Assembly: GCA_027622195.1 (NCBI GenBank)
Contig: JAQBZO010000006.1
Span: 1-64,000, forward strand
Source of the DNA: Planctomycetota bacterium
Lineage (GTDB): Bacteria; Planctomycetota; Phycisphaerae; Phycisphaerales; SM1A02
Length of the DNA stretch: 64,000 bases
Reading direction: 5' to 3'
The notes beneath the pieces are model-generated. The model worked only from the letters and a program-made list of their open reading frames with translations. It ran no database searches and was not told the origin of the DNA. Of the stretch, positions 38,459 through 41,166 are shown piece after piece. The number at the start of each line of letters is the position of its first letter. Position 1 is the first letter of the stretch. Both the position numbers and the translations under genes were made by a program.

Positions 38459-39130
38459 ATGAGTGGATTTCGCGCATTGCTCGTCCTCGCGGGTGCTGTA
38501 GTCGCCAGCGGCTGCACGTCGCGTCAGCTTTCGACTCAAACGATTTCAGCGCCTTCTTTCCATCTCGCGTGGACCTCGGCACTCGAACAACTGCACGAGG
38601 ATGGGTATCGCATCGCGATGGCCGACGAGGGGCAAGGGTTGATCGAGACGACTCCGAAGCGCGAGGGAAGTTGGCTCGACCCATGGGCTATTGATGAGCA
38701 TCAAACTCTTGGAGATGTTTCAGAGGCAACCGCCGCGCGTGAGCGGAGGGTGATCCGAGTACGTTTCACGAGTGTGGGGAAAGCAACGACGCAGTTATCG
38801 GACTCTACTGCACCACTCACAGGTTCCGCGCTTCCTGGCAGTTTGGGTGATATTCCTCCACTGACGGCGGATCCGAGCCAGCCCGTTGATATTTCGATCG
38901 TCGCCGTGATCGAACGGATGTCGCGGCCGTTCTCAAATCCGAGCGCTTGGAGCGGATCGCTGGAGTCCAGTTACCGAGTCGGGCCGTCGGAAGTGCCTGT
39001 CGAAGGAGTTCGTCCTCCACCAGCGGATTATGACAGGTGGATTCCCGTCCGATCGGATGCGAAGGAGGCGACTCGGCTTTCGACGGCGCTTGGAGTTCGT
39101 TGCGGATCCGCCACAATTCGTGGCTCTTAG
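38459..39130 (+). CDS. Putative lipoprotein of unknown function
   Basis: A 223-aa protein with a lipoprotein signal: MSGFRALLVLAGAVVASGCTSRQ, lipobox VASGC. The remaining sequence is polar, with a conserved-looking early segment LAWTSALEQLHEDGYRIAMADEGQGLIETTP that resembles small outer-membrane assembly-type lipoproteins only in composition. No family recognised. An in-frame GTG at 38441 lies 8 nt after TATGCT and may be the real start. It is 60 bp after oppB, so it could also be co-transcribed with oppAB. Confidence 0.7.
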   Translation: MSGFRALLVLAGAVVASGCTSRQLSTQTISAPSFHLAWTSALEQLHEDGYRIAMADEGQGLIETTPKREGSWLDPWAIDEHQTLGDVSEATAARERRVIRVRFTSVGKATTQLSDSTAPLTGSALPGSLGDIPPLTADPSQPVDISIVAVIERMSRPFSNPSAWSGSLESSYRVGPSEVPVEGVRPPPADYDRWIPVRSDAKEATRLSTALGVRCGSATIRGS

Positions 39131-39231: not shown

Positions 39232-41166
39232 ATGAAAACTCTCATCCCAGCATCCACGCGCGCTCGTGTCCTTTCGACCGTGGCGTTCACGTCGCTCATT
39301 GCTGGCGTGACGCTGTCTGCCCTTGGAGGCGGCGGAGGCGGACAGATCAAGTTGCCAACCACCGCCGCTGATTTTTATATGCCCGGCAGTCAGCCTGAGC
39401 CAGACCAAGCAATTTTCTTGCCTGTGTTTGAGTCGGCACAGTGCACTGGATGTCACGCCTACTACGACGCTCAAGATGCTCCATTCGATACGTGGGTTGG
39501 AAGCATGATGGCGCAATCGGCACGAAACCCTGTGTGGCACGCGTCGCTCGCCATTGCGAACCAAGACGCCAACACTGCTGGACAGTTTTGCATCCGATGT
39601 CATGCTCCAAGCGCATGGCTCGGCAATCGACACACGACCGGCACGCTCGCAGAGTTTGAGATCCCAAACGATTTCGATGGAGTGAACTGCGCGTTTTGTC
39701 ATCGACTGACCGACCCCGTGGTTGGTCCAGCAAGTGCTATTGGGTATCCAGACAATCCTTCGCAGGATTCCGATCCAGATCCTGAAGTCGTTGATCCACT
39801 CATCGCGGCTGGACATTGGCCCAGCGCAAGCCAGCGCAGCAACGGCGCGTATGTCGTTGATCCACACGATGTACGCCGCGGACCCTTCGATGATGTCCCC
39901 GTGAACTTTCACGGCGTTGACATGCACTATTCACCATTTCATACCTCGAGCAGTTTGTGCGGCACGTGCCATGACGTGAGCAACATCAATACAACCTTGC
40001 TCGCCGATGGCACCTACGGACCCGATCAACTTGGTGCTGCACATGGCACCGGCGCGACGAATGACATGTTCGCTGAACAGCGCACCTACAGCGAGTGGCT
40101 GAATAGTCAATTCGCTGTCTCGGGCGTCTCGTACCCAGACAATCGCTTCGGCGGGAACCATGCCACGGGTGTGATGAGTTCGTGCCAAGACTGTCATATG
40201 CCTCGGCAAGAGGGAGGCGGCTGCGTCTTCTTTACAGAGCCTCCGTACTCACGTCCCGATGTGCCGCAGCACTCATTCGCGGGATCGAACTCGTGGGCGG
40301 TCCGTGCCGTCAGGCAGGAACTCGGCATTGAAGCGGACGACTTCGGACTCACTCAGGCTAATGTCGATGCAGCCATTGCGCGCAATGTGCAGATGCTGCG
40401 CGACGCGAGCGATGTTGAACTCACGCAGACTGGTTCGACACTCACCGTGCGCGTCATCAACCAGAGCGGACACAAGTTGCCCACTGGTATCGCCGAAGGT
40501 CGTCGGATGTGGATCAATGTTCGATTCCTGAATGGAGCGGGCGCGACCATCCAAGAGAGCGGCGCGTACAACTTCGCGACGGGAACTCTGATTGACCACA
40601 CTGCGAAGGAATACGGCGCGCACATGGTGACCGCTGGATCGGTGGCCGCTGCGGCGAACCTGCCCAATCCAACCGACTTCCACATTGCACTGCTGAATAA
40701 GACTTCGAAGGACAACCGCATTCCACCGCGCGGCTTCACGAATGCTGCATACGCCGCATTTGGAGGCGCTCCTGTTGGCGCGGTCTATGTCGATGGTCAA
40801 TACTGGGACGACACCGCCTACGCCATTCCTGCCGGAGCAACAGACACAGTCGTCACCGTCTATCACCAGACCAGCACGCGTGAATACATGGAATTCCTGC
40901 GCGACGCGAATACCACAGATGGAACTGGACTCACCGCGTACAACCTTTGGGTCACGCTTGGAATGAGTGCGCCCGTCGACATGGACAGCGTTCAGCTCGC
41001 TCTTACACCTGGTTGTGTGCCAACGGATCTCAACTGCGACGGAAGCGTGAACGGGCAAGATCTCGCTCTCCTTCTGAGTGGTTGGGGTACTGCTGCGGGC
41101 GACGTGAACAACGATGGAATCACGAACGGCGCGGATCTCACGCTGCTCTTGAGTTCATGGGGTTGA
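39232..41166 (+). CDS. Secreted multihaem c-type cytochrome with C-terminal dockerin
   Basis: A 644-aa exported protein. Signal peptide from ATG 39232 (MKTLIPASTRARVLSTVAFTSLIAGVTLSALG). Five CxxCH haem sites: CTGCH, CIRCH, CAFCH, CGTCH, CQDCH, within about the first 320 residues, with further His residues able to be distal ligands. A beta-rich region follows (VELTQTGSTLTVRVINQSGHKLPTGIAEGRRMWINVRF). The C-terminus, after CVPT, is a type I dockerin-like pair: DLNCDGSVNGQDLALLLSGWG and DVNNDGITNGADLTLLLSSWG, each a Ca-binding loop. Electron transfer outside the cytoplasm is likely; the dockerin suggests attachment to a cohesin-bearing partner. Confidence 0.88.
   Translation: MKTLIPASTRARVLSTVAFTSLIAGVTLSALGGGGGGQIKLPTTAADFYMPGSQPEPDQAIFLPVFESAQCTGCHAYYDAQDAPFDTWVGSMMAQSARNPVWHASLAIANQDANTAGQFCIRCHAPSAWLGNRHTTGTLAEFEIPNDFDGVNCAFCHRLTDPVVGPASAIGYPDNPSQDSDPDPEVVDPLIAAGHWPSASQRSNGAYVVDPHDVRRGPFDDVPVNFHGVDMHYSPFHTSSSLCGTCHDVSNINTTLLADGTYGPDQLGAAHGTGATNDMFAEQRTYSEWLNSQFAVSGVSYPDNRFGGNHATGVMSSCQDCHMPRQEGGGCVFFTEPPYSRPDVPQHSFAGSNSWAVRAVRQELGIEADDFGLTQANVDAAIARNVQMLRDASDVELTQTGSTLTVRVINQSGHKLPTGIAEGRRMWINVRFLNGAGATIQESGAYNFATGTLIDHTAKEYGAHMVTAGSVAAAANLPNPTDFHIALLNKTSKDNRIPPRGFTNAAYAAFGGAPVGAVYVDGQYWDDTAYAIPAGATDTVVTVYHQTSTREYMEFLRDANTTDGTGLTAYNLWVTLGMSAPVDMDSVQLALTPGCVPTDLNCDGSVNGQDLALLLSGWGTAAGDVNNDGITNGADLTLLLSSWG

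Follow-up and report, generated by a model that had tools for sequence, protein, structure and literature searches.

The window, that is the whole stretch of 64,000 nucleotides analysed here, encodes a pentahaem cytochrome of the c552/ExtKL kind that is predicted to be exported and carries a dockerin at its C-terminus, and this dockerin probably docks the cytochrome, along with ~35 further exported proteins encoded by the genome, to one common receptor on the surface or in the matrix. A sequence-only reading had proposed that five CxxCH motifs and a two-loop dockerin occur in one exported polypeptide, and this proposal was confirmed to the base. Parts of the picture are already known, namely pentahaem cytochromes, planctomycete dockerins (NF041540), and the planctosome hypothesis (PMC6461901). 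The literature searched contained no account of a pentahaem cytochrome bearing a dockerin; as far as that search extends, the presence of the module on a conserved cytochrome of this type, its exchange with T9SS domains, and a genome-specific recognition code appear to be new.

In the proposed mechanism, the cytochrome would be exported by Sec and then loaded with five haems, after which its calcium-bound dockerin tail would dock it to a putative receptor that also holds many hydrolases. Electron transfer would thereby be fixed to the surface or the matrix, in the vicinity of degradative enzymes. The putative receptor may be a strongly diverged cohesin or another fold, with no recognisable cohesin in the window's genome. 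The surface placement itself is suggested by homology and by the type of module that the protein carries.

The cytochrome and its relatives

Table 1. Features of the cytochrome gene and of the gene upstream of it, in window coordinates.
Feature	Position	Strand	Details	Basis
Lipoprotein-like gene, upstream	38459..39130	+	lipobox VASGC; no Pfam match	locus comparison
Five-haem cytochrome gene with dockerin tail	39232..41166	+	ATG at 39232; stop ends at 41166; product of 644 aa	ORF, homologue alignment, AF2 model
Predicted signal peptide region	39232..39324	+	residues 1-31; basic start, then hydrophobic helix	sequence; model helix at residues 7-31
Haem motif 1	39442..39456	+	CTGCH, residues 71-75	sequence, conservation
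Haem motif 2	39589..39603	+	CIRCH, residues 120-124	sequence, conservation
Haem motif 3	39688..39702	+	CAFCH, residues 153-157	sequence, conservation
Haem motif 4	39958..39972	+	CGTCH, residues 243-247	sequence, conservation
Haem motif 5	40183..40197	+	CQDCH, residues 318-322	sequence, conservation
Beta-sandwich, C-terminal part of core	40408..41001	+	residues 393-590; conserved GHKLPTG motif at residues 413-419	model DSSP; conservation
Dockerin loop-helix 1	41026..41079	+	residues 599-616, DLNCDGSVNGQDLALLLS; recognition positions 10/11 are G608 and Q609	Pfam; tail comparisons
Dockerin loop-helix 2	41101..41154	+	residues 624-641, DVNNDGITNGADLTLLLS; recognition positions 10/11 are G633 and A634	Pfam; tail comparisons

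The N-terminus of the cytochrome resembles a Sec signal peptide, with basic residues followed by a hydrophobic helix, which points to export by Sec. The genome also contains a cytochrome c assembly gene (PF01578), and haem loading of the exported protein is presumed. At the other end of the polypeptide, the two-loop dockerin spans residues ~598-641, and both loop-helix units are present in the AF2 model (mean pLDDT 91.4, pTM 0.88), with helices at residues 608-616 and 633-641. The Pfam Dockerin_1 profile (PF00404) gives this tail 20.9 bits (E 4e-4) by hmmscan, just under the cut-off of 22.9, and 23.7 bits in the search of the genome, which is above it; the tail can be assigned to the family on a score that is borderline.

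All five CxxCH motifs are invariant across 74 aligned homologues, down to 38% identity, and a chance occurrence of the motifs was rejected on this ground. In the same alignment, the non-motif histidines H227, H237, H347, and H414 are invariant or nearly so, and are candidates for distal haem ligands. A single PDB entry, 5ze8, matches the fold of the model significantly (E 2.2e-14; TM 0.69, normalised to the target). This entry, the c552 pentahaem cytochrome from Thermochromatium tepidum, is also the top sequence-profile match (E 1.1e-5). The NCBIfam ExtKL profile matches the family weakly, with up to 42 bits among the homologues scanned (L244), and the window protein itself scores 13.8 bits against the ExtKL equivalog NF040886, below its cut-off of 250. 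Judged from alignment and model together, the core is a genuine and conserved cytochrome whose nearest relatives are pentahaem cytochromes of the ExtKL/c552 group.

ExtKL is a pentahaem cytochrome of Geobacter (PMC6148476), and it has been grouped with the pentahaem cytochromes (PHC) of cable bacteria, whose structural homology to c552 was noted in the same work (PMC11976967). The window protein has the five haem c sites and the c552 fold by which this family, comprising c552 (5ze8), ExtKL, Gsu2801, and the cable-bacteria PHC, is recognised, and shares with it the beta-sandwich domain behind the haem part as well as the weak match to the ExtKL profile. It differs from these proteins in being longer and dockerin-tailed, in falling far below the ExtKL cut-off, and in showing no ext-type porin cluster among those of its neighbours that were annotated.

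Homologues found by a scan of GTDB species genomes belong mainly to Planctomycetota, and further ones come from one MAG each of Zixibacteria (L231) and Gemmatimonadota (L240) and from Bacteroidota (L242-L244). A homologue is present in 37 of 61 genomes, a set that comprises the window's genome and those of 60 relatives. The window's genome has the gene in single copy; both congeners have tandem five-haem cytochrome copies (L145:5621-9555 and L146:4935-8873) that are 66-72% identical to the window's. The homologue in G037 (L137:2282-4311) is split over two frames by a frameshift in the gene or the assembly, with both the core part and the tail part retained.

The dockerin as a module and as a genome-wide tag

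Comparison of the homologues shows that the dockerin of the cytochrome is a detachable and exchangeable location module. Four homologues (L134, L135, L136, and L138) have no tail beyond the core. In five others (L231, L240, L242, L243, and L244), from Bacteroidota, Zixibacteria, and Gemmatimonadota, the protein ends in a T9SS type A sorting domain (TIGR04183) that scores above the NCBI cut-off; this domain takes the same C-terminal place on homologous cytochromes but is an unrelated module. No such tail was found in a search of the window's genome. In Phycisphaerales homologues, the place is held by dockerins with differing wording. One of these, in L206, is a GC-type dockerin (53.8 bits), whereas the window protein scores 14.9 bits against the GC-type profile NF041540, under its cut-off of 29. 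The window tail resembles the GC-type dockerin-anchored proteins in placing a two-loop dockerin at the C-terminus of an exported protein, and differs from them in its shorter spacer and in ending in WG, without the final GC. A further module of ~130 aa, ending like RNYQAFFRD...GLHVRF, replaces the dockerin in six homologues (L199, L207, L214, L219, L223, and L229); two of them were scanned, and in these neither Pfam nor NCBIfam gave the module a name.

Proteins with T9SS domains become secreted or attached to the surface, and because such domains hold the same place in homologues, the window's cytochrome would, by analogy, likewise be located outside. The pentahaem family spans Planctomycetota, Bacteroidota, and others, and the terminal module (T9SS domain, dockerin, or none) indicates how each lineage places this redox protein.

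The dockerin is a genome-wide tag, borne mostly by hydrolases and uncharacterised exoproteins, and is not special to the redox protein. A survey of the window's genome counted 37 dockerins, with the same module on ~35-36 proteins besides the cytochrome, and the possibility that the dockerin is confined to the cytochrome was rejected accordingly, with ~36 other proteins carrying it. The carriers include M12B peptidases (reprolysins; L105 and L125), an M14 peptidase (L112), S8 peptidases (subtilases), FG-GAP proteins, YHYH proteins, and others. Dockerins are common throughout the group, being present in 60 of the 61 genomes surveyed and often numbering 30-80.

The sequence-only reading had suggested looking for other dockerin-bearing redox proteins, and two were found in the genome, namely a di-haem oxidoreductase (DHOR) and a protein resembling MauG, both of which have two CxxCH motifs. 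Their genes (L107:4017-5804:- and L110:1866-4574:-, respectively) each adjoin another dockerin-tailed gene, for an FG-GAP protein in one case and a 482-aa protein in the other. That reading had also taken the tethering of an electron-transfer protein as suggestive of an extracellular or surface redox assembly. The part that stands is the genuine multihaem cytochrome, which appears to be exported; an assembly specific to redox proteins is possible but not indicated, because the dockerin is a genome-wide tag found mostly on hydrolases and exoproteins.

The position of the module within its carriers is also informative. Thirty-two of the 37 dockerins lie at the extreme C-terminus, ending 4-9 aa past the last helix core, and four are not C-terminal, three of them being near the N-terminus or just behind the signal peptide and one internal. 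The latter four (L113:1797-3242:+, L119:3-2036:-, L033, and L117) are worded like the C-terminal tails, and their carriers are an arylsulfotransferase, a PETase-like hydrolase, a formylglycine-type protein, and a protein without assignment. Because N-terminal and internal copies share the wording of the C-terminal ones, recognition of the dockerin by binding is more likely than processing of a protein end.

Tail wording and the putative receptor

Within a genome, the tails of unrelated proteins share residues at a small number of loop positions. This was seen in 124 tails from 20 genomes or loci, with homologous protein bodies excluded, the relatives' tails taken from best Pfam hits, and the loop aspartate numbered as position 1. 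Identity at position 10 is 0.75 within genomes and 0.18 between them (z 19), and at position 14 it is 0.56 and 0.22 (z 16), where the z-values come from label shuffles and the shared ancestry of tails within a genome is only partly removed. Positions 11 (z 8.5) and 18 (z 7.5) follow, a weaker signal is present at positions 13, 16, and 9, and the calcium-loop positions 2, 3, 4, 6, and 7 show a genome signal of about zero. Recent copying of tails is disfavoured, because it would make all positions alike, yet the calcium-loop positions carry no genome signal.

The same tendency is found at the cytochrome loci, where the tails of unrelated proteins are closer to one another within a genome than elsewhere (normalised score 0.49 versus 0.30; 0 of 300 shuffles). 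The cytochrome tail follows the local wording, with G in the window's genome, F in L195-L211, V in G031, and A in G017. In addition, the residues at positions 10/11 are the same in both loops of a single tail in 67% of cases, against 20% when shuffled, as expected of dual-mode dockerins.

Cellulosomal dockerins contact the cohesin via residues 11, 12, 18, and 19 (PMC4728124), which correspond to positions 10, 11, 17, and 18 when counted from the loop aspartate as above (a shift of one). The genome-specific positions match these contact residues, with the exception of position 14; positions 10, 14, and 18 are spaced as would be expected of one helix face. As in cellulosomal dockerins, the recognition residues are constrained and symmetric in both repeats. 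The pattern speaks for selection on the recognition of the tails by a shared, genome-wide partner, and the dockerin is probably not inert. Planctomycete genomes hold tens of dockerins and few or no cohesins, and the genome-specific wording makes the dockerin partner directly testable.

The sequence-only reading had assumed that the dockerin tethers its carrier to a cohesin. The docking half of this claim held up, in that the tail behaves as a docking module whose cohesin-reading face is under genome-specific constraint, whereas the cohesin half found no support: in the window's genome, whose assembly is 88% complete, neither the PF00963 cohesin profile nor a clade-derived profile built on the cohesin-like domains of relatives (A4) gave a match. 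Profile A4 is able to detect such domains, as it matched in 10 of 31 genomes with 1-3 copies each, including the congener G001. In the second congener, G002 (96% complete), neither profile gave a match. Across the 61 genomes, nine have any PF00963 match at E<=0.001, six of these above the cut-off. By a hand count, 21 of the 26 family genomes with a tailed orthologue and completeness of >=90% have no PF00963 match.

These counts bear on a classical cohesin-dockerin assembly, or planctosome, in which a cohesin-bearing anchor or adaptor would bind the dockerins and the cytochrome would be one cargo among several. The planctosome was proposed for freshwater Phycisphaerae, a related lineage, with dockerins on M12B and M14 peptidases (PMC6461901), and both kinds of peptidase are tagged in the window's genome. 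The recognition positions match those of cellulosomal dockerins, some relatives have cohesin-like domains, and the incompleteness of the window's assembly also leaves room for this explanation. However, the window's genome lacks a detectable LTD anchor as well as a detectable cohesin, and a congener of higher completeness has no cohesin either. Dockerin numbers stay high in the well-covered genomes that have a tailed cytochrome and no PF00963 match, and the cohesin-like domains of relatives are few and sit mostly in proteins that carry dockerin-like repeats themselves. A classical assembly is therefore considered unlikely. The cargo also differs from that of the planctosome, since here it includes haem proteins, and type I cellulosomal systems, which share the two calcium loops and symmetric recognition residues at the same positions, differ from the present case in that no cohesin or scaffoldin was found here, the cargo is mixed, and the inter-loop spacer is shorter.

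A comparison can also be made with ANME archaea and their bacterial partners, where, in the available text of the reports (PMC9012536, PMC5244752, PMC10553843), dockerins occur in organisms that rely on multihaem cytochromes and are suggested to aid surface assembly. Those systems differ in having cohesins and scaffoldin-like proteins, and the available text describes no fusion of a dockerin to a pentahaem cytochrome.

Docking to a common receptor, as favoured here for the cytochrome, may be extended to a Phycisphaerales surface-docking system, wherein dozens of unrelated exoproteins, redox proteins included, would share the dockerin tag, one receptor other than a cohesin would bind them, and a species-specific code would lie at loop positions 10, 11, 14, and 18. 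This wider proposal is put forward tentatively.

Role of the core and its surroundings

A different explanation concerns the core, which, instead of serving as an electron conduit, could chiefly be an enzyme displayed outside, such as a reductase of the nitrite or hydroxylamine type or an enzyme with peroxidase-like activity. Weak matches to the NrfH/NrfB and cytochrome c554 profiles point in this direction, but the scores of these models fall short of the cut-offs or barely exceed them. Among the co-tagged proteins in which a domain was recognised, most are enzymes, and around the haem part only ~four non-motif histidines are fully or almost invariant, which would leave room for an open haem site. 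Against this, the fold match is to a low-potential c552, the relatives of which are discussed as electron carriers (PMC11976967), and an enzymatic core is regarded as rather improbable.

The explanation that the dockerin is a mere calcium-stabilised C-terminal cap or a cleaved trafficking signal without a lasting receptor, leaving the cytochrome an ordinary periplasmic or secreted carrier, agrees with the extreme C-terminal position of most copies and with the replacement of a T9SS sorting domain in some homologues and absence of the tail from others, but is quite doubtful, as a cap gives no reason to expect that genome-specific wording gathers on the face contacting cohesin, and a cleaved signal fails to predict the same module at N-terminal and internal sites. 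The sequence-only reading had named two observations that together would speak against its own proposal, the lack of a cohesin in the genome and a repeat that acts only in sorting or stabilisation; the first was made, whereas the evidence on the second favours recognition over a mere stabilising tail.

A point against a docked electron carrier is that the neighbourhood of the gene, with its peptide ABC transporter genes and the lipoprotein-like gene, shows no redox partner or porin; no recurrent cytochrome or porin-like neighbour was seen among 80 loci that were clustered and had their neighbours annotated in part. A search of the window for tRNA found none. In ~25 related loci, homologues of the lipoprotein-like gene adjoin that of the cytochrome, in both orientations; by synteny the lipoprotein-like gene is probably a conserved neighbour, and any partnership with the cytochrome is putative. 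Genes of the peptide ABC transporter also recur around the cytochrome gene. In five loci (L203, L204, L206, L209, and L211) the cytochrome gene lies within runs of up to five adjoining dockerin-tailed genes, and these runs include a recurring protein of ~1010-1120 aa and another of ~258-294 aa.
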